Shown: piece after piece, positions 2 through 64,000 of the stretch | Layout of the letters: each line of letters opens with the position of its first letter | How positions within the stretch are numbered: the stretch's first letter is position 1 | From: Acholoe squamosa | Taxonomy: Eukaryota; Annelida; Polychaeta; Phyllodocida; Polynoidae | DNA length: 64,000 nt | Reading direction: 5' to 3' | Assembly (NCBI GenBank): GCA_949317995.1 | Contig: OX439046.1 | Location: 34,260,002 to 34,324,001, forward strand | The notes under the pieces: model-generated | Told to the model about the DNA's origin: nothing | Seen by the model: only the letters and a program-made list of their open reading frames with translations | Database searches by the model: none | Made by a program: the position numbers and the translations under genes

Positions 2-1853
2 TCGTTACTCTGTCAGATGCAAGCTGACGAGGATGCTCGAGCCAGGGACGAGGCAGAAATGCGTCGTCGCTGTGAGGAACGAATCGAACACGCAAACAAA
101 ATGGCGGAATATCAGGTTCTAATGGAACAAAAAGCGAGGCACGAGGCCGAGCTTAATTCCTTGAAGTCTGAATCCCTAGTAGCCCAATCACTGAAAGATC
201 AGAAGGATTCGGATACTCTGGGAGCCATGCGTGGAGAAATCGATGAGCTCCGACGAGAGATATTGTCTCGCAGGAAGGCTGATGAAGCCAGGGTTAATAA
301 AGAAGTTCGTGATGAACTCGCACTCGAGGAACGTCTGAAGGAGCAGACGGAATCGAAATTGCGTGCCGCTAGACTTCAAGATAAGCAACAAAGAAGTGAA
401 TGCAGCACTACTAGAGTTGCTACTCAAGAGGACCTAGTCGAAAACCCTGACTACAGAGAGTGGCTTGATCGTGCCATGAAGGAGGTCAAGCAGCTCTTTG
501 CCATCAGCGAGCAACGAGATCTCTCGAAGCCCGAACATACCCGCCTGGAATTCCTAGTGTCGGAATTAAGACAGGCGGAACGTTCAAAACAGCAGGCTGA
601 GATAGATAGAATGGTGGGGGCAATCGACGACATCTCGAAAGTTGATTCGAGGTCACGTCGGACCCAACCTGTTCCTTCGATGCCACGCACCGATGGTCTA
701 AGTGGAGTGATCGGACAGTTCTCGACCCCTACCACGACCCAACAACATGTTGATCCACCCAAATATAGGGATATCAGATTCGAGGCTTCGCGCCTGAGTG
801 ACGCCGATTCTGGTAATCCCTGGGGGATGAATCATAGTCGTGCAGACACGACTATGAGAAACATGGGGATGGACCATCAAATACCTAGAAGAGGTACAAC
901 ATTCGCTCTTGATCAGGTCAGGAGATCAAGCAGAATGTTTGAAAATACCTCTATCGGGCATGAACCAGCCCGAACTAGGTCAGTCGAGTGCCCTCCATTT
1001 ACATGGAAGGACGATTGGCTCCGTTGGTACCACGGATTCAATCACGTCCGTCGAGTAAATGTATGGACCTCGAGTATGGCATTAGCTCAACTCCTCATGT
1101 TACTCCAGAATGGCCCTGCAGCTGATACTGTGTGGCTATGGGAGGAGCATGGAGATGGGACTTTGGATGGACTGGTCGACATGGTAACGGAAGCCATGAC
1201 TTCTAGCCTTCAAGATCCCATTGTCACAATGGAGAAGAGACGCCAAGGCAAGAACGAAAGCATTAGAGCCTATGGCTTTGCTTTGAGACGTCTTGCCGGC
1301 GATGCCTATCCAGGTTGAATGGCTCATAACCAAAGTCAACCAGTTGTTCATAGGAGGATTGTATGACGTTGATTTACAACAAGACGTTCTTCGGGAGTGG
1401 CGCACTTACATGTCCCTCAAGGATCTCATGGACTTGGCAGACGAGTTGTTGCGGAAACGACAACTCCTGCCGAAGTTGGTGAATCCTACCTCGACAAATG
1501 CATTGTCGGCGTTGGCCGACGCCGCTTTGGTCGAGGAGGGACAGGGGGAAGTGTCCTCATACTCGAAGCCCGGGGCGGGGAGTAAGACTAAGAAAAGTCA
1601 GAAATCCGCTGGTAAATCGAAAACACCAAACAAGGCCTCCAAACCCAAGGTACAGGAACAGACCTTCTCGCTGAGTCAATTGAAGAATTTACTCAGGGTT
1701 ATCGAGGGAGGGGATGTCCCTGGTACTAGCTCGGAGAAGCCGAGTACCCCTCCGTCCGACGCCAAGTGTTGGAACTGCAAGAAGCAGGGGCATTTCGCAC
1801 GAACTTTCCCCGAGCCGATTAAAGGTCTACCACCTGACACGACGGAAAACTGA
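2..1853 (+). pseudogene. gag: Gag polyprotein of element A (5' partial, frameshifted)
   Basis: Structural protein of the particle. The frame is open from the window edge, so the N terminus is missing; the first visible Met is at 17. About the first 120 residues are highly charged and look like a coiled coil, followed by a capsid-like region around 1000-1460 (W, RAYGF and LFIGGL-type positions match the Gag of element B). The frame is lost at about 1290-1318 and the homology resumes in another frame from 1293 to 1853, so one indel separates the capsid halves. A zinc knuckle lies at about 1768-1812: it has C-x2-C-x4-H but Phe where the last Cys belongs, unlike the intact knuckle in element B. 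Gag and pol are in different frames; the pol frame is open back to the end of gag. Confidence 0.85.
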
Positions 1854-2053
1854 GGCGGGCAGCTCGACGTGGCAATCGAGCTGCCCGACCATCGAAAAGC
1901 CAAGGTATCAGCACCTCTGGCACTCCTGATCAGACGACAGTAGATTCGAGGGAACTAGGTAAGGTCCCGGTAGGGCCGTCCCAGCCCTTTACCACAGCAG
2001 CACCGGTTGATCACCGGTCGGGTTCCGAAGATGTCGGTGTAGAAAAAGCCTCA

Positions 2054-4330
2054 ATGGCCAAGGAACAGGGCGCTGGCAGCCCGAACTCCGAGGTCGAGGG
2101 TTCGACTGGATCGAAAGTGAAAGTCGACGCCGGGAGAGAAGCCCTGATGTGGCAGCTGGCCAGAGTCTGCGCAACAGAGCTTCCCTCAGATGATCCCTGT
2201 CTCTCTTTTCTGAAGAAGAGAGGGATCGATCTGAGTACTGACGTAGGGTTGAGAATGCTAGCAGGAACCGCCCCCTTGTCGGGGAAACGATGGTACCTGT
2301 CTGCAGAGATTCGAGGGCGTTCTCTAGACTTCCTGATAGATACTGGTGCCAGCCACACCATTGTCTCTCGGGAACTCGCGAAAACGTTAGTAGTGCCGTC
2401 AGATAATCTCTACGAGGGAATAACGGCGTGCACTGCGTCTGGAGCCGAAATGCGGACCTATGGTCGATTGGTTCTACCTCTTAAGGTCGCATCGACCCAC
2501 TATGTGTTTAGCCCAATAGTGGCCGATGTGGCTGACGATGGCATTCTGGGGCTCGACTTCGCGGCATTATACGGTATGATCCTGAACCCAAGGACGGGTC
2601 AATTGGTCATGACCGAGCCGGTAGAAGAGCACCATCAGTGTAAACTGAAGAGAGTGTCATCGATAGCCTCAGTAGCACAGACCACTAGGATACCTGCCAG
2701 ACATCGGTGCGATGTCTTGGTAAAATCCGACGGTCTGGAAAGAGACCGACAGGGCATAGTCGAACCCGACCTGAAAACTCTGAGAAGTTTTGGGTTGGTT
2801 GGTGAGGCTGCCCTTGTCAGCAATGTCCGTCGAACAGTGTTTCCCGTCTGTAATCCACTGAATCGAGACATTGTCCTGGAGAAAGGCCAGGTGGTCGGTA
2901 CTGTACAGTACGCTGACAGAAACAGTGAACTCTCTTCACCGGAGGTAGGATCTGTGATCATGGGTCTCGAGCAAGAAGCTGCAGACATCGAGACGGCGGA
3001 AATCGCGAGCACCCGCACGGGGGAGCTCCCTACCTGGCTGTTAGACATGTATGGCGACACCCACCTGACCCAGCCAGAAGAAAGACTGAAACTGTCCGCC
3101 TTACTACGTAAGCATGTGGATGTCTTTGAATCCCCAGATGAACCGTTAGGGCGTACCGATCGATGTCTGCATAACATCGACACGGGTGACGCACAACCTA
3201 TCCCTTATAGAAGGATTCCGCTCAGCAAGAAAGCTGCGGCGGATGAACAACTTAAGGAGATGTTGGATACGGGGGTGGTTAGGCCAAGTACTAGTCCCTG
3301 GTCCAGTCCCGTCCAGATGGTGACGAAGAAGGATGGGACCATGAGATTGTGCGTCGATTATCGATGTCTGAATGGAGTGACTAAGAAAAATGCTTACCCC
3401 CTCCCGCGCATCGACGAATCCTTGGATGCCCTAGGAGGAAACAAGTGGTTTAGTTGTCTCGATCTCCAAACTGGATATTGGCAGATCGGGATGAATCCCG
3501 ACGACGTCGAGAAAACCGCTTTTTCCTACCAGAGGGGGCTCTACGAGTTCGATCGAATGGCGTTTGGTTTGTGTAACGCCCCCGCCACATTCGAGCGAAT
3601 GATGGAGGAGATGTTGAGAGGTTTGCTAGGTAAAAGTTGCCTGGTTTACCTCGATGATATCATCGTCTTCGGCAAAACGACGGATGAAGCAATGGCGAAT
3701 CTGGCAGAAGTCTTCAACAGGATTCGGGCATGGGGGCTGAAGTTGAAACCTAAAAAGTGTCAACTTTTTAGGACTTCAGTCGAGTACCTCGGCCGAATCG
3801 TGTCTGAACAGGGTATAGAAGCCAACCCGGGGAAAATTAGCGATGTAATGACTTGGGCTAGGCCTACTACAGTGAAGGAAATTCGATCCTTCATTGGTTT
3901 TTGTTCCTACTACCGAGAGTTCATCCCGGGGTTCGCGGAACTCGTAAGCCCTTTACAGGACTTAGTGATCCAAAAACCTAAAGGTAGTAGAGGTCGTTAC
4001 GAGGCATTCGCGTGGACGGAAAGAGCCGAACATGCCTTTGTCGAGTTAAAACGAAGTTTCAGGGAGACACCTGTGCTTCGATTCCCCACACCCGACGGTC
4101 GTTTTATCTTGGACACTGACGCTAGTAATACCACGATCGGGGCTGTTCTATCCCAAGTGCAGGATGGAGCAGAGGTCCTGATCTCGTTTGCTAGCAACAC
4201 TCTAAGTAAAACACAACGAAACTACTGCACCACCAAAAGGGAACTGCTGGCGGTTGTCGTGTACACCAGGAAGTTTAGGCACTACCTCTATGGTGGTAAC
4301 TTCACTATCCGCACCGATCATTCGTCTTAG
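2054..4330 (+). pseudogene. pol: Pol of element A: protease, reverse transcriptase, start of RNase H
   Basis: Replication enzymes of the element. The aspartic protease has DTGA at 2339-2350. The reverse transcriptase follows, with the YPLPRIDE region, the LQTGYWQIGM block, FGLCNAPATFERMM and the catalytic YLDD at 3647-3658. RNase H begins near 4100 with LDTDAS and includes TKRELLAVV. The frame ends at a TAG (4328-4330) directly after the RTDHSS motif; element B has a sense codon at this place, so this is a nonsense change inside RNase H rather than a natural end. The first Met is at 2054, but the frame is open upstream to about 1840 and the true start may be made by frameshifting from gag. 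Confidence 0.92.
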
Positions 4331-4745
4331 AAATGGCTCCTGAATTTCAAAGAGGCTGAAGGAATGATGGGTAGGTGGCTGGCCCACCTTTCGGAGTTCG
4401 GTCTCGAAAACTCTAAGATCGAACATCGAAGTGGGGCCAAGCATCTAAACGCCAGGATGGAGCAGAGGTCCTGATCTCGTTTGCTAGCAACACTCTAAGT
4501 AAAACACAACGAAACTACTGCACCACCAAAAGGGAACTGCTGGCGGTTGTCGTGTACACCAGGAAGTTTAGGCACTACCTCTATGGTGGTAACTTCACTA
4601 TCCGCACCGATCATTCGTCTTAGAAATGGCTCCTGAATTTCAAAGAGGCTGAAGGAATGATGGGTAGGTGGCTGGCCCACCTTTCGGAGTTCGGTCTCGA
4701 AAACTCTAAGATCGAACATCGAAGTGGGGCCAAGCATCTAAACGC
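4160..4745 (+). repeat. Perfect 293-bp tandem duplication inside RNase H
   Basis: Bases 4160-4452 are repeated at 4453-4745 with a constant offset of 293. I found no difference between the copies, and both carry the same TAG stop. The junction shares only the short bases CA (or CCA), so microhomology is minimal. The unit length is not a multiple of three, so the duplication also shifts the pol frame. It is either a very recent event in this copy or an assembly artefact. Confidence 0.95.
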
Positions 4746-6837
4746 CAATGGTCTTAGTCGTATCCCTGTGTGGCTATGCCAGAGGTCGGATTGCACAGAC
4801 TGTGGCAGTCATAATGCTGTTTTGGCAGCTGTAGGTGGTTTAGTAGACAGCCGGGTGGGTGTTGCATTTTGGTCTCTCGATGAACTCATTGATGCTCAGA
4901 AAGCGGACGCCGACATCAAACGAGTTGCTGAATGGCTAGTTAAGGGGGCTAAACCCACTAGGCCTGATGTATCAATCGAGAGCGCCGAGGTACGGAAATT
5001 AGTAGGGCAATGGCCTCTATTAACCTTCCGTGAAGGCTTGTTGTGTCGCTGGAAAGTCGAGGCGGGTCGAGCTAGATGCAAGATTCAAGTAGTTCTACCA
5101 CGCCAACTGAGGGGCGAGGTACTCTCCTTTTGCCATGGACACCGAACAGCGGCACATTTTGGTCGTAAACGAACGCTTGAAAAAGTGAAAAGGAGATATT
5201 ACTGGCCTGGAATGGGGAAGGACATAGGTCGTTGGGTTCGACATTGTCCTACCTGTTGCCTGGTAAAGCCCGGCGAGGGCATGGGTAAGTCTCCTTTGCA
5301 CCAAGAGTTGTTCGGGGTGAGATTCGGGAGGATAGCTATGGATATCATCTCGGGATTTGCACCCACGCCAAACAAGAATACTTGCATGTTAGTAATCCAG
5401 GATTACTTCACCAAGTATGTACGCGCTATTCCCCTACCAAATCACACAGCAGAGACCTGTGCAGAAGCCTTCGTGGACGAATGGGTTTTGACCTTTGGAG
5501 TCCCGTTGCTTCTGCATTCCGACCAAGGTCGAGAATTTGAGTCTCGACTCTTCTCTGAGATGTGTGAATATTTGACGATTGTAAAACAGAGAACCAATCC
5601 ATACAGACCACAGAGCGATGGTCAGGTGGAAAGGTTCAATAGAACATTGTTTCAGAGTCTGACTATGTTGGTAGACAAACATATGGACGACTGGGATGAA
5701 CAGGCTAAATATGTGGTGTCCGCATATAACAGCTCTGAACACAGTTCTACTGGATGCAGTCCAAATATGATAGTATTCGGGGAAGAAATTCTCATGCCAG
5801 CGGATGTGATTTTCGGCTCAATCGAGAACCCACTCGAAGTCCCTTGTTCCGTCACTTTCATGGAACAACTTCGTGACCGATTGAGAGAGAGTTACAGCAT
5901 GGTAAGAGAAAACCTAGGTAAATCTGCAGAACGCCAGAAGGTCGGGTATGACTATGGGCTAAAGCAGAGAAGATACTCAGTTGGGGAACAGGTGGTGAGG
6001 TACCACACCCCCCAAGCAGCTATGAAGCTTGCCCCCAACTGGGATGGGCCGTTCGTAGTAGATTCTGTCATCTCTGAGTCAACATTATTACTTCGATCAT
6101 CCCGCGGACGGTTGCAAAAGAGCAATATCGATAGAGTGCGCCGGTGGTTGGACGTAGAGCTATCACAAACTGTCGAGTTGTTGCAACCACAACTTGATGA
6201 TGATTCACCTTCTCGTAAGGCTACGAAAAGGGCTAAGTCTGTTTCTGGACAGGTCGAAATAGAGATCGAAAGGTCGCGGCCGGAAGTTCAGTCTAAAAAA
6301 CAAACTACGCAGGGTCATCGAAAACGACAGCAAAAGGCTCGAAAACTGAGCGAGGTGGAGGTGTTGGATGCCAGTAAACTATCAAAGCGGCGCCGTGGTC
6401 GACCGGCCCGTCGAGATAAGTCGAAAGCATCTAAACAGCCTTTGAAAGGATGTCGGAAGCCCGACCCCCCCTCGAAGGTGCGAACGATTGAACAAACTTC
6501 ACATCGAAACGTCTCGATTGAAGTCAAAGATCAGTCACTCCAGTCCGGACCTATGACTCGAGCGAGGCTTAAGCGCCAAGGCTCATCAAAGGAACGGTCA
6601 GCGAGTGTCGAGGATGAAAGGAAATCCAGAGCAAACACTCTGGCTCCTACATCCACACCGTCACAAGTGATGGGAGGCAGACGCCGACGGAAACGGGTTA
6701 ATAGCCCGGTTGGCCCGGCCACATCAAAGGACGGCGGGCTAGGAGGGGGTGATAGTAACCCACCCCGAGGCTCAACACTCGTTCCTATAGTAAAGATTAG
6801 AATCAGGAAAAGTCCTAGATTAAACCCTACTCAGTAA
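4657..6837 (+). CDS. pol: Pol of element A: RNase H end and integrase with AT-hook tail
   Basis: Open for 726 codons. It starts with the end of RNase H (duplicated copy), then has the H-x-H...C-x2-C zinc-binding region of integrase (HGHRTAAHFG to HCPTC, about 5137-5256). The integrase core has its acidic residues in MDII (about 5338), HSDQGREFES (about 5515) and DGQVERFNRTL (about 5617). A GPF-type module (NWDGPFVV, about 6037) follows. The remaining 230 or so residues are very basic and low in complexity, with an RGRP AT-hook core at 6394-6405 in place of a chromodomain. The integrase of element B stops soon after the GPF-equivalent region, so this long tail is specific to element A. Upstream pol is disconnected by the stop and duplication at 4328-4745. 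Confidence 0.92.
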   Translation: MMGRWLAHLSEFGLENSKIEHRSGAKHLNANGLSRIPVWLCQRSDCTDCGSHNAVLAAVGGLVDSRVGVAFWSLDELIDAQKADADIKRVAEWLVKGAKPTRPDVSIESAEVRKLVGQWPLLTFREGLLCRWKVEAGRARCKIQVVLPRQLRGEVLSFCHGHRTAAHFGRKRTLEKVKRRYYWPGMGKDIGRWVRHCPTCCLVKPGEGMGKSPLHQELFGVRFGRIAMDIISGFAPTPNKNTCMLVIQDYFTKYVRAIPLPNHTAETCAEAFVDEWVLTFGVPLLLHSDQGREFESRLFSEMCEYLTIVKQRTNPYRPQSDGQVERFNRTLFQSLTMLVDKHMDDWDEQAKYVVSAYNSSEHSSTGCSPNMIVFGEEILMPADVIFGSIENPLEVPCSVTFMEQLRDRLRESYSMVRENLGKSAERQKVGYDYGLKQRRYSVGEQVVRYHTPQAAMKLAPNWDGPFVVDSVISESTLLLRSSRGRLQKSNIDRVRRWLDVELSQTVELLQPQLDDDSPSRKATKRAKSVSGQVEIEIERSRPEVQSKKQTTQGHRKRQQKARKLSEVEVLDASKLSKRRRGRPARRDKSKASKQPLKGCRKPDPPSKVRTIEQTSHRNVSIEVKDQSLQSGPMTRARLKRQGSSKERSASVEDERKSRANTLAPTSTPSQVMGGRRRRKRVNSPVGPATSKDGGLGGGDSNPPRGSTLVPIVKIRIRKSPRLNPTQ

Positions 6838-7457: not shown

Positions 7458-7728
7458 AGCTGGACTAAGCCTAGCTTATTCCAGCTGGTATACTCCGCCC
7501 CGGGGACTTCCTACCTGAGTGTAGGAGTTCTCCCCTGCCTAAGTGTCGAGGGACACGACCTGCGTGAGCGCAGGTTCGGGTTCTCTCGAGGCTCCAGTCT
7601 TCGGTCCCTCGAGCCGCCTGAGTGCGGTTCGAGGTACATCGAAGGCACCTTCGAGGCTTCGACCCGCCAGAGTGCGGATCGAAATACCTCGAAGATTCTC
7701 TTCGACGTCTCGTCCCGTCTGAGTACGG
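7458..7728 (+). other. Array of stem-loops in the ORF3 leader
   Basis: A 29-base hairpin at 7458-7486 (12 base pairs, one mismatch) is followed by short stem-loops at 7510-7525, 7559-7574, 7614-7627, 7664-7677 and 7715-7728, spaced roughly 40-60 bases apart. Stems are CCTAC/GTAGG, CCTGC/GCAGG, CCGC/GCGG, CCGC/GCGG and CCGT/ACGG, around a six-base loop usually CTGAGT or CAGAGT. A degenerate sixth copy may sit near 7532-7552. Several have outer TCGA pairs. The stems differ between copies by paired changes, which supports structure in RNA. The frame is open through this region, but I place the likely ORF3 start after it. Confidence 0.6.
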
Positions 7729-7784
7729 TTCGAGACCCGGAGTCTTCTCTCTCTCTGGTGGAACCCAGCAGTTCAGGAAGAACC

Positions 7785-10244
7785 ATGGGGTCCTCGTCCG
7801 ACGAGCAGTCAGGGTACAGCTCTTCGGCGAGCCACAAGTCGCAGAAGAAGAAGAAGAAGAAGTCCAAGAGGACCAGACCCGAGCAAGAGCTCGAGTCTAC
7901 CTCGGCTAAAAGTGCTGCCCTTCTGAAGCAGATCGAGGAAGCACAGAAAGCCTTGGCCGAGTCCCAGGAGCGGGAGAAGGAGCTCCGCCGGAAGGCGAAA
8001 GAGGCATCTAAGCAGCAGAAGCGCGACTTGAAAGTCGCAGCTGCTGCCGCCTCGAGGGACTCCTCCCCCGACGAGATGGAGGTCGACGAGCCGTCGACAC
8101 CTGCTCCATCGAAAAGTGCTACCCCTTCAGGTTCTAAGGGCAAGAAGCCCACTGAATCGAAGGCATCCAAGGGTACCTTGAAAGACTTCAAGATCCCTAA
8201 GGTGCCCAAGAAGGAAGGTAGCAAGAAGGAATCCGCAGCCAAGAAGGCTCCAGCCCGGGAAAGGAGTAGCGAGTCTACTGCACCACCGGAACCTGGAACC
8301 GAGCCGTCGGAGGTCGATGCCGGTGCCGTGGAGAGCACCGTATCCTCACCCCCAGACACGGCCAAGGCTGTCGACGAGTGGAAGCGGCTGTCAGCGATCA
8401 CTGCCAAGCGACGTACTGAGTACGTCGATGACAGGCCACTGACCAAGCTTCAGGAATACCGCAAGAATGGTCAAGTAGTACTCCCTAGTCTCGTCGGGAA
8501 GGATGGTAGTGACGACGAGGAATGGTATTCGGACGATAGTCATGCCATTGACTGGTATGTCTCGATGATCGAGAATATCACGAATGCCTCAGACTCGTCG
8601 GGGGTGTCGCTGCCCGAGCGACAGCGGATTGGATTCGCATGGCGCATCTTCAATCCAGGGCAGCAGTGTGCTTTCGATAACTGCACACGTAAGGGGTTCC
8701 CCCCTCGCGTATATGCAACAGACGGCAGGTATGCTCGACACTTGGTTGAAGAGCATCGAGCCATCCGTCCGCAGTTCGGTTGTGTTAAGGTGGAAAAGAC
8801 CATTCCATGTTATCAGGACCCTGATGACCCGACCTCTCCTCCTTTCGTGACTTCACGAAGGGGCTTGATGGCGCGTCATCTCAAGTCGTACAAGCAGCCC
8901 CATAAGTACAACGCCGAGGGCGCTATCCAACTAGTGGAGACACTGGTTGGAAAGTGTGAACGGAATGAAAAGAAAGGCGCGCCGACTAGACACTGGATGC
9001 GGATGGCCCCCGCACCCCCGTCTACGAAGCGCCTGTATATCAGACCGGAACTGATGCCCGCTTTCTACGGTGCCTACCCCGAGTTCAGGGTAGAGCAACG
9101 GAAGAAGCGGGAGGCCAGTCGTCCTCGGGACCCAGGACCGACAGCTTTTACGAGTGGGAACAAGAGGCCCCACTCTACAGAAGCTGGGAAGTCTGCCGGT
9201 TCGACTGAACCTAAGAAGCCTAAGCCGCAGGCTGCTCCCTCGAAGCCCGAAAAGGCATCGAAAGCCGCCCCGGCCCCGGCTCCTAAAAAGTCGAAGACTG
9301 CTTCGACCGGTTCAGCCAAACCAAGCACCAGTGGTGCTAAAACTGGAGGCAAGACGGTGGAATCCCGGAGTGGTCGTGATCGGCAACCCAAGGTGACCAC
9401 CAACTCGTCTCCCCCTGTCAAACCCCCTGCGGCGGCGGAGGACAGCACCCCAGCTGCCACGCCGCGTGTTCACGTGGGAGGCGCGACACTGACCTCGGCA
9501 GCAGGAGCTAGCTTCTCCGACGTCGTGACAGGCGCCGACACCCCAACAGCAGCCTTGCGTTGGGAGTTGGCACAGCCTGCCTACGGCGATGGCGTCGAAC
9601 GTGGGGTCCCGAAGACGTTCGTGGAACGTTGTAAGGGACTTCTACAGATGACGGGCAGCCCTGCTATCGACAAATTCGGTGAGGCATTTCGTGAGGAAGC
9701 GAGTGCCTACTTGTTCGGCCTGTTTGATAGAACAAACATGGCCATCCGTGACGAGCTCCTTCCGGCTCTTAGGGATGAGGCGCGCCAGACTGTTCAGATG
9801 GAGATGGACTCTCGTCTGACCGATGTCCGAACGCGTCTCAATAACTTTGAGTCACAAGCCCAATATGATATTACCAAGAGGGATAGTATCATAGAAGGTT
9901 GGGAGGAAATCGACCGCGAATTCTTCAGAGTCTTTGGGGTCCAACTGTCGGAATGGATGAAGGACAAGCACCATGGCGTCCGAACCCTGAAGCCCGTTCG
10001 AACCGAGCCCTCTCGCGAAGCGCAGAGGTACCTCGTCGAGGGTGGAGTGGTCCCTGACGTCAGGACGCTGGCCGCTCAGACTAATCCGTTGAGAGAATTG
10101 TCTCCAAAGATGGACAGTCTGAGCTCGGCTATGACGATGTTGGGCCGAGAACAGGTGGTGCAGGACAAGCCTGACACCGCGGGTAGGTCTCTCGTGCCTC
10201 CGTCTACCCACCAGCAGCCCCATCTTCCTCCTCGGTTCCCTTGA
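7785..10244 (+). CDS. ORF3 of element A: coiled-coil, zinc-finger-like protein in the env position
   Basis: I do not recognise this as any named family. The frame is open from 7377, but the ATG at 7785 has a strong context (ACCATGG) and begins a Ser- and Lys-rich region, giving 819 residues. Order: a poly-Lys stretch, a coiled coil (about 40-90), a Ser/Pro/Lys-rich linker, a DDEEW motif (about residue 243), then two zinc-finger-like units, C295-x4-C300-x18-H319-x4-H324 and C333-x8-C342-x22-H365-x7-H373. A second Lys/Pro/Ala-rich linker and a helical C-terminal region (about 600-790) follow. There is no signal peptide, membrane segment or furin site, so it is not an envelope protein. It is probably a nucleic-acid- or chromatin-binding accessory protein (inference). 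Element B carries a broken homologue with matching RHLVE and RRG-MA-HL motifs. Confidence 0.75.
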   Translation: MGSSSDEQSGYSSSASHKSQKKKKKKSKRTRPEQELESTSAKSAALLKQIEEAQKALAESQEREKELRRKAKEASKQQKRDLKVAAAAASRDSSPDEMEVDEPSTPAPSKSATPSGSKGKKPTESKASKGTLKDFKIPKVPKKEGSKKESAAKKAPARERSSESTAPPEPGTEPSEVDAGAVESTVSSPPDTAKAVDEWKRLSAITAKRRTEYVDDRPLTKLQEYRKNGQVVLPSLVGKDGSDDEEWYSDDSHAIDWYVSMIENITNASDSSGVSLPERQRIGFAWRIFNPGQQCAFDNCTRKGFPPRVYATDGRYARHLVEEHRAIRPQFGCVKVEKTIPCYQDPDDPTSPPFVTSRRGLMARHLKSYKQPHKYNAEGAIQLVETLVGKCERNEKKGAPTRHWMRMAPAPPSTKRLYIRPELMPAFYGAYPEFRVEQRKKREASRPRDPGPTAFTSGNKRPHSTEAGKSAGSTEPKKPKPQAAPSKPEKASKAAPAPAPKKSKTASTGSAKPSTSGAKTGGKTVESRSGRDRQPKVTTNSSPPVKPPAAAEDSTPAATPRVHVGGATLTSAAGASFSDVVTGADTPTAALRWELAQPAYGDGVERGVPKTFVERCKGLLQMTGSPAIDKFGEAFREEASAYLFGLFDRTNMAIRDELLPALRDEARQTVQMEMDSRLTDVRTRLNNFESQAQYDITKRDSIIEGWEEIDREFFRVFGVQLSEWMKDKHHGVRTLKPVRTEPSREAQRYLVEGGVVPDVRTLAAQTNPLRELSPKMDSLSSAMTMLGREQVVQDKPDTAGRSLVPPSTHQQPHLPPRFP

Positions 10245-10758
10245 TAACCCTCTCGGGAACCACCGAGCCTACACCGCCACCGGTCCAGAGAGTGGTGTCA
10301 CCGAGGATCCATCCGATCTTCATGGCATCACACCTCTGGCCCCGGCGAATGTAGCCGTCTGCCCGGACCCGTCGGCTTCCGCCCAAGCAGTAGAACCTGC
10401 CGAGGCGGAACAGTCGATGGATATAGACGGGGACGTCGATGTCGTCGATCAATCTCCAACGCCTCCCCCTGACCAGGGAGACAAGGACGACCGTGAAGGT
10501 CAGGAGAGCGACGACGACGACGGAAGCGACTCAGCAGACTCGGCCGTTCTCCACTCAGATGCTGAGGGGGACTCCCGGGATACACCCGAGACCTCTAACG
10601 AGGCTTGGAGTACGACAATGGACCGTGAGGCCCCATTGCCGGAGTCGCCGACGTTTTCGGGCCAGCTAGCCGCCAGCGCTTCACATGAGGAGGAGCGCAC
10701 TGACGGAGAGCAGGCTGAAATCGACGCCGCTACAGGGTCCATCTCGGAGGATCAGTAG
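10243..10758 (+). pseudogene. Acidic C-terminal tail of ORF3, in a shifted frame
   Basis: The ORF3 frame ends in TGA at 10242-10244, but another frame is open through that point and continues to a TAG at 10756-10758. Its product is rich in Asp, Glu, Ser and Pro, including a run of Asp near residues encoded at 10505-10525, a composition matching the rest of ORF3. The two frames overlap from about 10200 to 10244, so one indel or a programmed frameshift would join them. The first in-frame ATG is at 10417. The stop codon lies inside a hairpin (10746-10778). Confidence 0.55.
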
Positions 10759-11341
10759 TATGATACTACTGCTCCTCCTCTTTAGCTTGGATCGCTGACA
10801 TCGAACAGAGTCTCGATGTCAGCACGGAACCCCCGGGAACTCGTTCCCGGACGAGGGTGTACCCTCCACGAGTGGGGGTACCTTTCCTGTCCCCGGACCT
10901 CCCTGCGAAGCTGTGTGGATCCGACGCCACCCTGGTCTTAGGGCCCGGTGGTGCCACACATCCTCGGCCTCACGGTCGAAGGACCATCATAGTAGTACTG
11001 TACACTATCGATGGGCTTCCTACGCTGGAAGGAGCTTCTCAACGAGACAGGGAGGAAACGACACGACCCCGGTTGCCATACCCGGTCGTGCCTCCCTCGG
11101 ATCGACCAGGAGCAGGTCGTGAAGCAGTGTTTCGACACTGGTCTCCTACGTTGGATGGAGCAACGCCTTATAATTTAACTGTGATAATAATTTTTTTCTA
11201 CAGTACAGTAGAAACTATATTTCTATATATTCCTCTACTGTTTCTGTCGACTATGTCGACAGATCCAGTAGTTCATATTATTATCTAATTGTTTAGACTG
11301 ATCCGGGGTCTCTGAATTTTCAGAGACCTCGTTTCAGTCTA
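10746..11341 (+). other. Chain of hairpins between ORF3 and the polypurine tract
   Basis: This non-coding tract holds at least seven inverted repeats in a row: 10746-10778 (6 plus 8 base pairs), 10794-10823 (11 perfect pairs), 10833-10850 (8 pairs, 2-base loop), 11062-11090 (7 pairs), 11125-11140 (6 pairs around TTCG), 11235-11271 (9 inner and 6 outer pairs) and 11294-11341 (10 inner and 8 outer pairs). The last one abuts the polypurine tract. A 3' untranslated region with this density of perfect stems is unlikely by chance. Possible roles are RNA packaging, dimerisation, stability or export; none is shown by sequence alone. Confidence 0.65.
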
Positions 11342-11352
11342 GTGGGGGGTGG
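11341..11352 (+). other. Polypurine tract (plus-strand primer)
   Basis: AGTGGGGGGTGG directly precedes the TGTGGTG that begins the 3' LTR, as expected for the primer of plus-strand DNA synthesis. It is not a pure purine run (two T residues), but position and G content fit. Confidence 0.65.
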
Positions 11353-11820
11353 TGTGGTGGTCCCGCGTCGTCTTCGAGGTACCTTCGTGGTCCTCGTGGG
11401 CGACGTCGAGAGCACCTCTATTACCCGACGCCTGGGGGCGCTGGAGTCCAGCGCCACGTCACCACTTGGTCATGTGGCCCTCGACTCCAGTGTATATAAG
11501 GCCGTTGTACGGCCTTCCTCAGGGTCAGTCCAGCCCCGACTGACCATCGTGAGCGATGGTTGGCGGCTGCCCGGCTACCATATTCTAGTACTCCTCTGTG
11601 CTGCTGCACAGAGGAGGTGTATGTGGAATATCAACTGTAGACACTAGAAGGCCTAGTGTCGAACCTGATTTAGAGTTCAAACTCTGCCACCTGTAACTGT
11701 GATCGAGAACGGCTGATGCCTATGTGTTATTAGACAATAAAGTTTTAACTGGAACCTGAATAGTTGTTCTTCGTTGTTTATCGAAAGATTCAATTGAACA
11801 TCGAGGGGTAGAACACTACA
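11353..11820 (+). repeat. 3' LTR of element A (468 bp)
   Basis: It begins TGTGGTG and ends CACTACA, so the ends form an imperfect inverted repeat of the TG...CA type. It contains a TATA box (TATATAAG, 11493-11500) and a polyadenylation signal at 11736-11741, giving a U3 of about 165 bp. Five consecutive perfect hairpins follow the TATA box: 11498-11516, 11523-11545, 11543-11560, 11591-11616 and 11640-11660. The ends match those of the element B 5' LTR and the solo LTR at 62107-62553, placing all three in related families. The target duplication would be about four bases starting at 11821, but its partner is outside the window. Confidence 0.85.
11736..11741 (+). terminator. Polyadenylation signal in the 3' LTR
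   Basis: AATAAA about 240 bases downstream of the LTR TATA box and 80 bases before the LTR end, the expected place for the R-U5 border signal. Confidence 0.65.
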
Positions 11821-12251
11821 CTCCTATCACGTGTGCCAAGAAGTCAAACATCAGGGGTGAGAGTGTGAGTGGTCTAAAGTCAGTGTAGGAAACTGAATCC
11901 GCCATTTTCTTTTGGTGCTGCCACCTTGTAGAAATTAATGAACTATTGCTGCTTTATTTTCTAATAAAATAATACCTCTTTGTGAAATACATTCACGATT
12001 TTTATATGAGCTAAAGATAAATCACAGAAATTAAAATGGTAAGTCTCATAATTTTATTATGTCTACATAACAAAAACAACCTGTGAATGTGTTGCAAGTG
12101 TTGCCCCTTCTGAGGCCCCACCATATATATCAATTCAGCCAGCTGATTGGCCTCTATCAAGTGGGGTTTCCCCATGACCTTTAAGAGCCCCTGATAGACC
12201 CTGATAATGATTTTCTTCAATTGCCAAGTATATGTTATTATATAGACCTAA

Positions 12252-15989: not shown

Positions 15990-33619
<17,630 letters not shown>

Positions 33620-39445: not shown

Positions 39446-39803
39446 TGTAGGGGCTCGTAGATCGTGATATAGTGTGAGCGTCTCCCTCGAGAGGGCGTTT
39501 CGAGCGGTGCGCCCATCACCGGTAGTCACTAGAGGTCTCCTCGACCCCTGGTTTCTGCGGGGTGGTGGCAGCACTGTTCGCCTCGCTCCAGCTCCTACCT
39601 GGGGCCGGGGAAGGCGTTAGTCTGGCTCTACCTGCCAACGGAGTCTGACCACCTCTACCTGAGCTTGCACTATAGCTAAGCAGTACACTTCGAGGTGGAT
39701 GTAAAACATATACCGCAATAAATATGTGCCGGTTGCACTAACCCGAGATACCTTGTCTGGTTTTCACTTCGAACTAGTCGAGGCATTAATCTGAACCACT
39801 ACA
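39446..39803 (+). repeat. 5' LTR of element B (358 bp)
   Basis: It begins TGTAGGGG and ends CCACTACA. A polyadenylation signal lies at 39717-39722. The ends are the same as those of the solo LTR at 62107-62553 read on its own strand. The preceding AGTA (39442-39445) would be the target site, but its partner is lost with the 3' LTR. Confidence 0.8.
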
Positions 39804-39804
39804 C

Positions 39805-39819
39805 TGGTGCCGTGACCAG
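39805..39819 (+). other. Primer-binding site of element B
   Basis: TGGTGCCGTGACCAG lies one base after the LTR. It starts with TGG, the complement of a tRNA CCA end, as required for minus-strand priming. The tRNA is not identified. Confidence 0.7.
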
Positions 39820-39863
39820 TCCTTGGTGTTAGTGCGCGGCCCTGGAGGCCGAACACGAGCACG

Positions 39864-40909
39864 ATGGATCTCAAGATGAAACAGCGAACATCTCGGGATC
39901 CACACCGAATGACACTGCTCATGCTAACGACTTCAACAGAACACAAATGAGGGGATATACTTCCATAGCAGGACCCAAAGTGGAGAGAGTAGTTCGAAAT
40001 CTCGAATCAGAGGAGATGCCCACTCCAGTCGCAAACCATACATATAGATTAAGCACCGAGTCCACAGGGACACCGCCCCCGATTACAATGATGACCCTCG
40101 ATGCTCAACGAGCAGCCTCAGCTCGAGCAAAAACAAAAACAACGAGTCCTCGCCGATCCCTAGACGACGTAGACGTCTCGGTATTCGACATAGGAGGTTC
40201 GAAAAGAGTTACTGAATCGGCAGCAGAATACTTGCGCGAGCAGGCCAAGCTGAGCTTCGACGCCATGAATAGAGTTTGCCTATATCAAGGGTTACCGAAG
40301 CTAGAAGACTCCGAACATAAAGTTCTGAGGCTTAGAAATCTGGAGAAACAATGTCACCAGTATCAGACCGAGAAAGAACGAATGTTGAATGACATGAAGA
40401 AGCTCGAGGAAAAAGCCGAATTGAAAGAAAAAGCTAATCGCGACCTTGAACAACAGGCACACATTATGCGAAGGAAAATAGAACTTGCTAAAGCCGAGTG
40501 GGAGAATGAGAAGCTTAGAAAGGAAGTTGACCTGGAGGAACAAGAAGCTAGCTCCACTATCAGGAATCTCGAACTAAAGAAAGAGACCGAGCAAATAAAG
40601 GCCGAAATAGAACAATACAAGTACGAGGCAAATAAGTTGCTGGAGATTCGGGATCAATGTATATTGAAGAATGAGGACGTGATGGAATCCATTAAAGACA
40701 GCAATCAGGACTTGTTCCTGAAGCAACAGGAGCTATGCCTTGAAATAGCCAATCTGACTAAGCGAAAGACGGCCCTTGACACATACGTGTCGGGAATAGA
40801 GAGTAATGGTCAGATTGATAAAGCAGACCCTGTTGTGGGGAAAGACAAATCTTTCGAAACAGACACGAGTGCATCTGTAACAGTTACTTTATCAACAAGG
40901 ATTATCTAA
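39864..40909 (+). pseudogene. gag: Gag of element B, N-terminal coiled-coil part
   Basis: The longest frame begins at the ATG at 39947, but coding-like sequence in that frame extends upstream. A better start is the ATG at 39864 in a neighbouring frame, implying an early one-base shift. The product is rich in Glu, Lys and Leu; residues about 110-290 form a long coiled coil, as in the Gag N terminus of element A. It ends in TAA at 40907-40909 while the capsid frame is already open from 40881. In element A these two parts are in one frame, so this break is probably a mutation. Confidence 0.75.
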
Positions 40910-40937
40910 GAACGAAATACCTACTGATGCTACGTTC

Positions 40938-42497
40938 GTGAAGGGACCTTCACCTTTAGCAACATCAACACCAGCCGAGGCTCTGAAGAAGCCGGACCGA
41001 TACGACCCGTTCGTAAACAACAACGCCGATGTTCATGTTCGAAATGATGGTGTCTATGACCCGAAGCATGAACCAAGGGCAACTGAACCCGAAAAACGGA
41101 GAATACGATTCAGTGTCACCACTGCCATGCCGCACAAAGAAACTGAATACAGCACTACTGATGGACAGGAAGGCCACTTCGAGTTGTCTTACGATGACAA
41201 CTCGGTAGATGAGTCAGAACCTTTGGGCACCGGGAACCAAGGTGCGGTAGGGGGTAGTGCATCGAGTACTACCCAAGGATCGACTGCACCCCCTACCGGG
41301 GCTGGGGGCGCTACAGGGGGACCTTCGAGGCGCTGGTCCCGAAGTAGCATGTTAGAAGACATGCTGAATCAATCAGCTAACACCTCGAACACTGCACACA
41401 GTGAGGAGACCATTCGAGAATGGAGTGTTAACCAATGCCAGAAATTGGTACGGACTAATAACGCGGCCAGGCGTCAGGCCATTCTACCAAAGATATACGA
41501 GGGTGTAAAGACTTGGAAAGAATGGTTCTCGAACTTCACTGATGACATGAGGTGCAACGCATGGACCCCCGAGGAGGCCTTGCCTCATCTCATCCGATGC
41601 CTGAAACACGGCCCCGGCCGGATAGCTGTTGAAAAGTGGAACGAAGTGTACTTCGAACGGGGTACTTTCCAACAGCTAGTTGAGATTGCCAGCATCTTAC
41701 TGTACAACTTGGTGAGTGAAGACCCTTTCATGCTCTTCAAGAAACGAACGCAGAAGCCACAAGAATCATTTCGAGCCTACAGGTATGAGCTGCAATCCCT
41801 GTTACAGAGGGCACGGCCGGGAACCAATCCTTCCAATAAATTTTTCCTGAACGACTTGCTACCACAATTCGTGAGCGGACTTCGAGACGAAGATCAGCAG
41901 CAAGCAGCTTTGGATGCTTGGAAAGGACGAAACCCTACGTTAACGGACCTGTTCGAGGGAATCGAATGCTGGACGGTGAAGAAGACCCTCATGGCGGGAA
42001 AAGTAGAAATGAAGACCTCAAACACTAAGGTTTGCGCGAGTACTAATACTAGTACAGCCTCCATGTCGGGGATACACCAACCGACTTACACTGAAACGGC
42101 TGCTAACGACTTCGAGATCATTGAGATCGAGGAGGAAAACAGCAGTATCTCTGCAGTACAGGTTAAGAAAGACGTCAAACGCAAATATATCCCTCGGCGG
42201 ATATATAACCGACGGCCTAATGAACCTCGGGTGGAACCAAGGCCCAACTCAGACAGCCGTGCACCTGAGATGGCCATTGCTCGAGCACCAGTGATGTCCC
42301 CACCGCGAACTACTGTTACACCCAAACCTCTGGACATCAAGAAAATGATGGAGGATTTCATGAAAACTTTTGCCGAAACAATGTATAACAGACCCGCACG
42401 TCGGAGAGTAGATCGTAGCAGACTACGATGCTACCGTTGCCAAGAAATGGGGCACTATGCTCACGAGTGTACAGCCCCAAAACCTGTACTATCCTGA
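40938..42497 (+). CDS. gag: Gag of element B: capsid and zinc knuckle
   Basis: The frame is open from 40881; the first listed codon is a GTG at 40938, so no real start need lie here. The capsid region (about 41500-41980) aligns with element A through TWKEWFSNF, ESFRAYRYEL and LLPQFVSGL. A complete zinc knuckle C-x2-C-x4-H-x4-C is at about 42430-42471. A Gly/Ser/Thr-rich linker precedes the capsid. Gag ends in TGA at 42495-42497, and pol begins 54 bases later in a different frame. Confidence 0.85.
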   Translation: MKGPSPLATSTPAEALKKPDRYDPFVNNNADVHVRNDGVYDPKHEPRATEPEKRRIRFSVTTAMPHKETEYSTTDGQEGHFELSYDDNSVDESEPLGTGNQGAVGGSASSTTQGSTAPPTGAGGATGGPSRRWSRSSMLEDMLNQSANTSNTAHSEETIREWSVNQCQKLVRTNNAARRQAILPKIYEGVKTWKEWFSNFTDDMRCNAWTPEEALPHLIRCLKHGPGRIAVEKWNEVYFERGTFQQLVEIASILLYNLVSEDPFMLFKKRTQKPQESFRAYRYELQSLLQRARPGTNPSNKFFLNDLLPQFVSGLRDEDQQQAALDAWKGRNPTLTDLFEGIECWTVKKTLMAGKVEMKTSNTKVCASTNTSTASMSGIHQPTYTETAANDFEIIEIEEENSSISAVQVKKDVKRKYIPRRIYNRRPNEPRVEPRPNSDSRAPEMAIARAPVMSPPRTTVTPKPLDIKKMMEDFMKTFAETMYNRPARRRVDRSRLRCYRCQEMGHYAHECTAPKPVLS

Positions 42498-42550
42498 GTT
42501 AATTATGTCGAAGAAACCCAGGAGGAGGAAAACTAAAGAGGATTGCATCT

Positions 42551-45500
42551 ATGGCAAAGGATGTGATCCGTGATTCGAAAATCTGCCAAAAAGCCACCAC
42601 TGGCGAACCCGAGCTAGTACGGGAATCAATACCCTCCGGGGGACTGGTACGTGAGAAGGATCCTCTCACCCCAGCCCGGGCTGGGGGCTTCAACGGGGTA
42701 GGGGCAGACGTTTGCCTGGACCTGAGGGAGAAATCCTACGTCGAAGAAGAGGGAGGTTGGGTTGAAGAGTTGACGCGCGTGAGTGCGGCACACCTCCCAC
42801 CGAACCATCCGTGTGTAACCTTCTTGAAGGGTTTCGGATGGGAGATCGGTGATTCCAAGGAACAACTCCGATTCGCCCAGAACTCCTCACCTTTGGGGGG
42901 GAAACGATGGTACATTGCTGTATCGGTGAAGGGGCGGACAGGGGAATTTTTGATTGACACAGGTGCCAGCCATTCGTGTGTCTCGAGAAAATTCTTCAGT
43001 CTGGTGTCCGGCAACCATGAAACGCTACCTGTTGGTGTTAATGCTTGCACGGCCGACGGTAGTCAGATGCAGACTTTTGGCAAGACTTTCATACAGATCG
43101 GGATGGGGGGCTACGAGTATGTAATGAGCCCTACTATAGCCGAGATAAGTGATGATGGGATAATTGGCCTGGATTTCGCAAGTTTGTATGGTGCTGTATT
43201 GGACCCCCGATTCGGGATGTTGAAAATGAGGCAACCCTTAGAGATCCCGTGCATATTGAGACATGTATCCTCGGTAGCCACCGTGGTACAGACAGTGAAA
43301 ATTCCGCCAGGAACGACTTGTGACGTTTTGTGTTCTTCGAACCATGCATTTCGAGGCTCGGACACTGTCTTCGAACCTAATTTTGAAACACTATCTAGCT
43401 TACAGCTAGATTCAGTCGACACTCTTGTGGGAAGTGGATCTTGGACAGTAGTCCCAATTATGAACAGAGGATTGAAACCTGTGTATCTGAGAAAGAATGA
43501 GAAGATCAGGGATATGTCCCTGATAAAACACATATCGGAAGCCCGATTTCGAACCGATTTACCTGATGGGACAGTTCAGGGACTACCAGATGACCTAAGG
43601 AAGTTGGTTAATGAATCTTCCCTGAGGAGGAATTCAGAAAAAGAGAAACTTCGAGCTCTGCTTGCTACCTACAACGATGCCTTCGGGAAAGCGGGGGGCG
43701 CGGTAGGTCGCACTAGCAAGGTATTACACACAATTGACACCGGTGACTCGAAGCCATTCAAAATACCCTATAGGAGGTTACCACTGAAAAAGAAGGTGGA
43801 GGCGGAGAAACAAATTCTCAAACAGCTGGAGAAAGGGGTCACAGTGCCGAGCACGAGCCCTTGGTCTAGCCCTGTGTGCATGACCACGAAGAAAGAAGGG
43901 TCTATTCGATTTTGCATCGATTATAGAAAGCTGAACGGCTCGACGAAGAAAAACTCCTATCCCTTACCAAGGATAGATGAGAGCTTAGACTCATTGGGGG
44001 GGAATAAATATTTTTGTACCCTCGACCTTCAATCCGGGTATTGGCAGATCGGGATGGACCCTAAGGATATGGAGAAGACAGCCTTCTCGAGCCATATGGG
44101 CCTATTCTAGTACAATGTTTTACCTTTTGGGCTGTGTAATGCACCGGCCACTTTCGAAGCTATGATGGAGGAGATGCTAAGTGACCTTCTTTGGAAGAGT
44201 TGTCTGGTGTACCTCGATGATGTCATAGCATTTGGAAAGACTTTTGAGGATTGCATGAGCAACCTCGAACTAGTCTTGAAAAGAATCCTAGCAAATGGGC
44301 TGAAATTAAAAGCAAAGAAATGTAATTTATTTAAATCATCTATTACATATCTCGGCCGTATAATAACTCCTGACGGCGTAAAAGCCGACCCTGAAAAACT
44401 CCAGACAGTATCCGAATGGCAGAAACCCATATGTGTGAAGGAGGTAAGATCCTTCCTGGGCTTCTGCTCATACTATCAAGACTTCCTCCCGAATTACTCC
44501 AAAGTAAGTTACCCCTTACAAATATTGGCACATTGGACCCCAGGTCGAGCAAAAGAACGTTTTCCATGAGGAGACGAACAAGACATAGCCTTCGGGCAAA
44601 TAAAACACTTGTTTGCTAACACGCCAGTATTGAAATATCCAACTGCGGATGATCATTTCATATTGGACACAGACGCTAGCAATGATAGTATTGGTGCAGC
44701 CCTGTCTCAGGTCCAGGACGGGGTCGAAGTACCAATCGCCTTTGCTAGTAATACTTTGAATAGGGCACAACGAAACTACTGCACCACCAAACGTGAGTTG
44801 CTGGCTGTGGTGGTATATACCAAAAAGTTTCGACACTTCCTATGGGGTACCGACTTTACTCTCCGAACTGACCACTCATCCCTGAGGTGGCTACTTAATT
44901 TTAAGGACGCTGAAGGTATGATTAGCCGTTGGCTGGCACACTTGTCAGAATTTGGGTTGGAGCATAGCCAGATCCAACATAGACCGGGCTCGAAGCATAT
45001 CAATGCAGACGCCCTTTCCCGGAGGCCTTTGAGAAAGTGCCAGAAAATCGATTGCGATGATTGCGGGGCCCACAACGCTGTGGCCGCAACGGTTCGAACT
45101 AGACAGTCGACGCCGTTGCCTAGCGGCAGTATGGAAAATGTTATAGAATGGCCAGAAGAAATTATCCTACATTTCCAACAAAATGACCCCGCTATCAAGA
45201 GAGTGATTTGTTACCTGAACAAGAATGCCAAGCCCGAACGGCCGGCATTGTCCCTCGAAGACAGAGAAACCCGTAAATTTCTAGCCCAATGGACCGAGCT
45301 AGAGATTCGAGACGGTCTACTGTGTCGATGGAAAACCTGTCCCACAAAGGACAAGGTTCTACAGATAGTGATTCCTATGTCACTAAGACGAGATATTATG
45401 TTTTATTGCCACGGGCATAAAACGAGTGGACACTTCGGGAAGAAGAGGACCCTAGAATGCCTAGCCAGGAGGTACTACTGGCCAGGAATGCACAACGACA

Positions 45501-46491
45501 TCATAAGGTGGGTGATGACTTGTCCCGAATGCGGCAGGAACAAGCCCGGTCCAGGAATGGGAAAGATGCCCCTGGTGCAAGAGCTATTCGGAGTTCGATT
45601 TGCCCGGGTAGCTATTGACATCATCAGCGGAATCGAACCCACACCCCGGGGCAATACTTGCATGATGGTAGTAACTGATTACTACACCAAATACACTCGA
45701 GTATATCCTTTACCTGACCATAAGGCAGCCACTTGCGCTATTGCCTTCGTGAAAGGATGGGTGTTACATTTAGGTGCACCTTTAATGATGCACAGCGACC
45801 AGGGACGAGAATTCGAGTCCAACCTGTGGCAAGAGATGTGCCACTATTTGGCCATTTGTAAAACTCGAACTAACCCATACAGACCACAGTCTGATGGCCA
45901 GGTAGAAAGATTCAATCGAACATTGATAAAAGTCCTTAAACCCTTGGTAAATTCTTGCCAGGACGACTGGGACGAACAATGTGACTTCGTGGTACACGCT
46001 TATAATAGCACTGTGCACGCTGCAACAAACTGCTCCCCGAATTTGTTAGTATTTGGGGAGGACATCATAATGCCCGCTGATCTTGTATATGGTGTTATAG
46101 GGGTAAGCCCCGAAGCCCCATGTACTGTAATGTTTGTAGAGTCTCTGCGAGACCAATTTAAGAGAGCTTATGAAGTAGTTCAAAAATGAACTACTAAAGA
46201 ACGCGAATTGGCAAAAAGTTGGGTATGATACCCACCTAAAGCCACGACAATTCAGTGTGGGCGACCAAGTGTTTAGGATGCATGAACCTTTAAGGTGCAA
46301 GAAACTGATTTCGAGCTGGGACAGACCCCATGTGGTCACCCGAACCTGAGAGCACTGTTATGCTTATGAGTCTAGCTACAGGCCGTATGAAAAAGTCTAA
46401 CATGTGTAGGTTGAGGAAATGGAGAGGACGGGATGCCGCATGTGAGGAAATTTCCAAACGGATGAACGAACAGAAGGACGAGATCCACTAA
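42551..46491 (+). pseudogene. pol: Pol of element B: protease, RT, RNase H, integrase
   Basis: Domains in order: protease DTGA (about 42956), RT with YPLPRIDESLDSLGG and YLDD (about 44210), RNase H with LDTDAS and TKRELLAVV, the integrase zinc region (HGHKTSGHFG to CPEC), and the integrase core with AIDII, HSDQGREFES and DGQVERFNRTL. One frame runs from 42551 to 46189, interrupted by a TAG at 44108-44110 inside RT and a TGA at 44567-44569 before RNase H. After 46189 homology continues through two frameshifts to a TAA at 46489-46491. The C-terminal tail is short and lacks the AT-hook region of element A. Confidence 0.88.
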
Positions 46492-63815: not shown

Positions 63816-64000
63816 GTCAGTCACCCATATTATATTAAAGCGCAATTATGGCATCAGGCATTGAATTTGCTTTACAGATGAAATAGATAAATCAATTATG
63901 TCAAACCATATTCATAGAACATAGATTAAAACCATATTATTGGAATATAGATTGCCCACTAGCAAGCGTTAGGGCGTTGTTGATTCTCAAATAATATGGT

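Follow-up and report, generated by a model that had tools for sequence, protein, structure and literature searches.

What does a Ty3/gypsy retrotransposon encode in the position usual for an envelope gene (env), when the protein found there has no envelope features? The question is raised by 64,000 nucleotides of the polychaete Acholoe squamosa (contig OX439046.1, positions 34,260,002 to 34,324,001; hereafter the window), in which a retrotransposon, element A, carries a long third open reading frame (ORF3) between pol and the 3' long terminal repeat (LTR). ORF3 is under purifying selection, and a conserved non-env module of a Ty3 lineage is well supported; a regulatory role can be suggested more tentatively. 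The features of ORF3 are as follows.

7785..10244, + strand: ORF3 of element A, 819 codons from its ATG in the window copy
8352..9044, + strand: conserved module, residues 190-420, modelled with a predicted local distance difference test score (pLDDT) of 80 and a predicted template-modelling score (pTM) of 0.79
8511..8525, + strand: DDEEW, residues 243-247, read from the sequence
8667..8756, + strand: finger 1, C295-x4-C300-x18-H319-x4-H324, read from the sequence, Cys2His2 (C2H2)-like in the model
8781..8903, + strand: finger 2, C333-x8-C342-x22-H365-x7-H373, read from the sequence, C2H2-like in the model
9660..9935, + strand: predicted 92-residue helix, a coiled coil, with local pLDDT of 82-95 over most of its length
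10135..10758, + strand: frame with the acidic tail of ORF3, not the frame of ORF3 in the window copy

The DDEEW motif and both finger-like units lie exactly as an earlier note on this DNA had claimed. That note's single ORF of about 990 codons at 7785-10758 describes the family and not the window copy, in which 819 codons are accompanied by a tail in a separate frame. Among 20 copies, including that of the window, eight read 990-994 codons from the ATG through the acidic tail, a ninth has the full length without an ATG, and the remaining 11 stop earlier. The stop-to-stop frame of ORF3 spans 962 codons, against a maximum of 327 codons in 1000 base shuffles. In 32 of the 55 scored copies the stop-to-stop frame is 1009-1017 codons, leaving only about 20 codons open ahead of the ATG; therefore the ATG is probably the start, with the long upstream opening in element A being accidental, and translation probably begins at 7785.

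Evidence that this protein matters to the element comes from comparing copies in the same genome (1.48 Gb, 63 contigs), where 55 of 12,913 candidates were scored, making copy counts lower bounds. At least 54 further ORF3 copies match that of the window at 96-98%. The 20 compared copies, which all have pol-tail sequence upstream and LTR sequence downstream, are the best protein matches, biasing the ratio of nonsynonymous to synonymous change (dN/dS) downwards; with that bias, it is 0.137 over 804 codons, and 0.133 when restricted to the 14 copies that have no internal stop. Constraint is tightest in the module (0.102 for residues 190-405; bootstrap 5-95% range 0.06-0.15 over 30 draws), similar in residues 1-189 (0.115) and the C-terminal part (591-760, 0.122), and weakest in the linker (406-590, 0.249; 0.18-0.31). 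The two shifted sense frames give 2.26 and 2.03, and the neighbouring pol C-tail, which includes no enzyme part, 0.81 (17 sequences). The antisense frames give 0.157, 1.71 and 2.74, the low first value being attributable, in our reading, to the codon positions it shares with ORF3. The gap between ORF3 and its shifted frames is too large for the choice of copies alone to have produced it. Across the 20 copies, 159 of 160 Cys and His ligand codons are kept, as are all 100 DDEEW residues.

Conservation extends to more distant relatives, one of them in a second element, B, farther along the window.

39473..39803, + strand: probable 5' LTR of element B, with the same terminal CACTACA as element A
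39833..46189, + strand: gag and pol of element B, in broken frames
47456..49105, + strand: ORF3 homologue of element B, with a TGA ending at 47569 and a TAG ending at 48394

Its primer-binding site (TGGTGCCGTGACC, at 39805, after the 5' LTR) is identical to that of element A, its gag zinc knuckle scores above the Pfam cut-off, and no 3' LTR is recognisable in the 64-kb window. The homologue that the earlier note saw in element B is real (33 of 110 residues identical, or 30%; BLASTP E 4e-6), and its second piece matches all nine sequences in a comparison with database homologues (E <= 0.006). It is also damaged: besides having in-frame stops, it is missing a Cys from the first unit in the module alignment, and nothing in it was seen to match the C-terminal part of ORF3. 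Between the two elements gag is 34% identical over 103 residues and pol 45-72%; ORF3, at 30%, therefore changes faster than pol between families.

Protein searches returned nine database homologues (P0001-P0009), unnamed proteins of 344-1024 residues without Pfam families, of which all have finger 1 and eight have finger 2. Searching the same genome with P0005, at E <= 1e-3 and with 57 of 9,096 candidates scored, gave at least 60 matches of 22-42% identity, some of which may be A-family copies. The 30 best loci, here termed the second subfamily, occupy 28 places, since L062, L067 and L075 overlap; they represent three successive module matches within about 3 kb (G000:C12, 16355432-16358510). 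These modules are 28-38% identical to that of element A, and 21 of the 30 loci (21 places) have reverse transcriptase (RT) or integrase coding upstream on the same strand, at 37-72% identity, which was not found for the other nine within the stretch examined. Stops interrupt 22 of the 30 matched stretches. The ligands are largely kept, at C 27/30, C 30/30, H 26/30 and H 28/30 in the first finger and C 29/29, C 29/29, H 28/28 and H 25/27 in the second, among aligned loci and with the three overlapping loci counting one module; all eight are present in 16 of the 27 fully aligned loci. Hence the module accompanies Ty3 pol in at least three groups that have diverged from one another (A-like, B and P0005-like). 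The view that it belongs to the element lineage is thus borne out by selection, ligand retention, the nine homologues and the diverged loci with Ty3 enzymes upstream, and the absence from other copies that would have told against it is not what is seen in A copies or element B.

What kind of protein this is can be approached by elimination. No Pfam family reached its cut-off for ORF3 or for any of the 11 aligned module sequences, among which C2H2 profiles detected no zinc-finger family at E <= 10. Searching solved structures by ORF3 sequence gave matches at chance level only. The structure search proposed for the module region matched no known family or env: Foldseek comparison of its model with the PDB and viral models returned nothing at E <= 0.001, the search of predicted viral proteins covering the module only, and C2H2 chains appeared among its structural neighbours only on a second look, with low Z. 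No known host family was matched either, in searches that included no host-gene library. Scans of viral contigs with ORF3 of element A and its homologues, pol of A, pol of A and B, and second-subfamily ORF3 confirmed no locus, nor did a scan of further genome contigs. The lack of envelope features holds on a crude test: no 19-residue stretch of ORF3 or its nine homologues exceeds a mean hydropathy of 1.21, leaving no candidate membrane anchor, signal peptide or hydrophobic fusion segment. The long predicted helix lies near the C-terminus, the N-terminal coiled coil being outside the modelled part. The finger fold and the helix are predicted features, and the fingers presumably bind zinc.

The element around ORF3 is organised as follows.

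2..1853, + strand: gag of element A, split between two frames that overlap (2-1318 and 1287-1853), its 5' end upstream of the window
1838..4330, + strand: pol part 1, aspartic protease, RT and start of RNase H (Pfam)
4160..4745, + strand: perfect 293-base tandem duplication, breaking pol of this copy in the RNase H region
4624..6837, + strand: pol part 2, end of RNase H, integrase and long basic C-tail (frames, Pfam and integrase match)
11341..11352, + strand: purine-rich run directly 5' of the 3' LTR, a candidate polypurine tract
11353..11820, + strand: 3' LTR, TG...CA, the 5' LTR being upstream of the window
11821-11824: target duplication CTCC, directly 3' of the 3' LTR

Element A is a member of Ty3/gypsy (Metaviridae), as is evident from the order of protease, RT, RNase H and integrase, an RT whose best solved match is that of Ty3 (4ol8, E 3.5e-71), its TG...CA LTRs, target duplication and primer-binding site. 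The LTR ends were suggested by a word, CACTACAC, found both where the 5' LTR of element B ends and 3' of ORF3 in element A. The 5' LTR, taken from the genome, aligns with the 3' LTR over 470 bases with six mismatches (98.7%), is followed by the primer-binding site TGGTGCCGTGACC, and CTCC lies at both outer flanks; with the paired LTRs found, ORF3 therefore sits inside a two-LTR element, between pol and the purine-rich run. The second gag frame has a CCHC-like knuckle below the Pfam cut-off (zf-CCHC, 17.0 against 20.8 bits). The pol duplication is too young for divergence, or an assembly effect. Identity with Troyka was rejected: that element has CG...CG ends, against TG...CA here, mostly one gag-pol protein and no env (PMC12440569).

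Insertion sites were compared in 38 flanks, those on the 3' side of 37 among 40 copies (L022-L061) plus window positions 11821-11832, the 5' side being included for element A alone. At base 5 after the 3' LTR the preference is for T, with A never present; A occupies base 6 in 74%, and all 38 have A or T at base 7. Together with the 4-base duplication this reads like TA-n4-TA. Flank G+C is 0.34 over the 20 bases nearest the LTR, compared with 0.39-0.41 farther out, one pair of flanks only is similar (over 56 bases), and 40 flank stretches of 1.3-1.6 kb each contain no tRNA gene.

Elsewhere in the window, two related host blocks (16027-28790 and 50036-63819), 70-83% identical in patches of DNA and each with a Ty3 element upstream, are probably a tandem gene duplication; the flanking genes have a presumed likeness to nrf-6-type acyltransferases. 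By eye, minus-strand open frames at 56024-58856 have the look of a non-LTR retrotransposon (endonuclease, RT), and 35541-37229 holds fragments of another RT-bearing element, with an RVT_1 match in 36840-37226.

How ORF3 is expressed, and on what its protein might act, brings in the non-coding sequence at either side of it.

7502..7735, + strand: four hairpins whose apical loops, at 7515, 7618, 7668 and 7719, read C(T/A)GAGT, with stem mismatches in the last two
7743..7771, + strand: candidate 3' splice site, a pyrimidine run and then a CAG ending 13 bases before the ATG
10759..11340, + strand: inverted-repeat-rich stretch 3' of ORF3, RNA fold z -9.06 (10760-11340)

The pyrimidine run and the CAG are present in all 20 copies, with variable bases just ahead of the CAG, and ORF3 is probably translated from a subgenomic mRNA produced by splicing, for which no donor was clearly established. 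When 250-base segments were folded against dinucleotide shuffles, the part of element A within the window had mean z values of -2.50 in gag-pol (n=27), -4.58 in the gap before ORF3 (n=3), -3.37 in ORF3 (n=11) and -6.28 in the 3' part (n=3), compared with -1.48 (n=28) and -1.85 (n=10) in element B, and -0.95 (standard deviation 2.62, n=76) and -0.28 (n=58) in host DNA. In three non-coding stretches, changes among copies that keep pairing outnumber those that break it by 52 to 20, 32 to 11 and 56 to 35, a modest excess, given that roughly one single transition in two leaves the pair intact; both members are changed in 1, 1 and 2 pairs. No Rfam family matched in the window at gathering scores. 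Six C(T/A)GAGT-loop hairpins surround ORF3 (7515, 7618, 7668, 7719, 8416 and 10806, the last with loop CAGAGT), four of them within the 300 bases before it, and a seventh is in the 5' leader (L021, position 2823). Three in tandem have differing stems and a loop constant except for one base, with three loop changes among copies. The motif was picked after being seen; in 60 shuffles the best count for any one-place-degenerate word was 4, against the 6 observed, and that for CWGAGT itself at most 1. In 20 A-family loci, 72 of 136 CWGAGT words sit on stems of at least 5 pairs, compared with 0/40 in the 30 second-subfamily loci, 0/15 in host DNA and 0/3 in element B; the second-subfamily result weakens the hairpin as a general target of ORF3.

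These observations bear on several explanations of the protein. It is possible, if doubtful, that ORF3 exports or packages unspliced genomic RNA in the manner of CERV or Rev, its fingers binding structured RNA and its coiled coils oligomerising. CERV, with a candidate C4 finger and possible leucine zipper, is needed for genomic RNA export (PMC10309623), and element A RNA is unusually structured relative to both host stretches, with the CWGAGT-loop hairpins surrounding the gene; however, those hairpins are absent from stems in the second subfamily and element B, and so are not tied to ORF3 generally, and covariation is slight. An unlikely alternative makes ORF3 a chromatin tether or integrase partner directing integration, as DNA-binding-like fingers, an acidic tail and the insertion preference at bases 5-7 might suggest. 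That preference is nevertheless short and adjoins the target duplication, a pattern that integrases alone produce, and the flanks are hardly ever shared, adjoin no tRNA gene, and show little departure in G+C beyond the first 20 bases. Slightly less likely still is a particle protein or reverse-transcription cofactor, in effect a second nucleocapsid-like protein: zinc-binding and basic stretches could coat RNA and coiled coils could join capsids, yet gag already has its own knuckle, weak in A and above the cut-off in B, and the fingers model as C2H2-like, unlike short CCHC knuckles.

Retroelements do capture host genes (PMC7264820). That ORF3 is a recently captured piece of one, functionless in the element, is very improbable given a dN/dS of 0.137 and ligands shared by families that have diverged deeply. 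Least credible of all is an envelope-like entry protein, which has the location in its favour, and against it the missing hydrophobic segment and the module's failure to match predicted viral proteins. Instead, we tentatively favour, at somewhat less than even chances, an accessory regulator acting at the DNA level by transactivation of the LTR. The protein would be soluble, and probably nuclear and oligomeric; it would be basic at its N-terminus and have two C2H2-like fingers in tandem, a long coiled coil towards the C-terminus and a tail of acidic residues. The coiled coil would join subunits, the fingers would bind the element's own nucleic acid, with DNA of its integrated copy or LTR as the likeliest target, and the tail may recruit host transcription factors; binding to nucleic acid or chromatin, as the earlier note suggested, is plausible from the two C2H2-like units and the long helix. 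A much bolder proposition, and a long shot, is that animal Ty3/gypsy elements include a broad, old group of 'complex' retroelements in which a zinc-finger regulator replaces env, and that the C(U/A)GAGU hairpins of the A family, in the leader and before, inside and after the gene, are response elements like those of Rev (the Rev response element) or Tas that arose outside retroviruses.

Accessory regulators of this sort characterise complex retroviruses, and few are known in animal LTR retrotransposons, CERV being one. A strongly selected finger-like protein in a multi-family Ty3 lineage is a testable case of an env-less element controlling its own expression. It also constitutes a new finger-protein family, which hosts might in principle domesticate. 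Foamy viruses encode, towards the 3' LTR, the accessory activator Tas (Bel-1), which binds DNA and has an acidic activating part; it is not known to be a C2H2 finger protein, and its likeness to ORF3 is one of domain layout only. The other comparisons are with systems as described in excerpts of the papers cited. CERV of Caenorhabditis elegans Cer1 (517 residues) and ORF3 are both accessory non-env proteins of animal LTR elements with a candidate zinc region and oligomerising helices, with a nuclear role shown for CERV and proposed for ORF3; compared by description only, CERV differs in its C4 finger, its exons 1-3 shared with the gag frame and its G-protein-like domain (PMC10309623). Retand TRP28 is likewise a conserved extra ORF between pol and the 3' LTR of a Ty3/gypsy element, with predicted DNA binding and a proposed regulatory role, whereas it is antisense, found in plants and matches PF04195, ORF3 being sense and without a Pfam match (PMC11963269). 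Bdelloid rotifer ORF3s also lie beyond gag and pol, and some types are coiled-coil or enzymatic rather than env; they are of GDSL, DEDDy, transmembrane or coiled-coil types, whereas ORF3 of element A has no GDSL or DEDDy Pfam match, and the word zinc is absent from the main text of that paper (PMC5408684). The sORF1 of the Drosophila MDG1 group is an accessory protein of gypsy-type elements with a subnuclear place, differing in its length of about 110 residues, its position upstream of gag and its possible helix-turn-helix (PMC11952523). The three extra ORFs of a zebrafish foamy-like element, of unknown kin, show no match to ORF3 (PMC2774666), nor does anything in the excerpt of PMC8220671. 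No description of a zinc-finger ORF3 of this kind was found in the literature searched, subscription titles being mostly outside its scope. Extra ORFs and env-like genes in LTR elements were already known, as were the accessory nuclear proteins of Cer1 and the MDG1 group; what is new, among the literature searched, is the zinc-finger ORF3.
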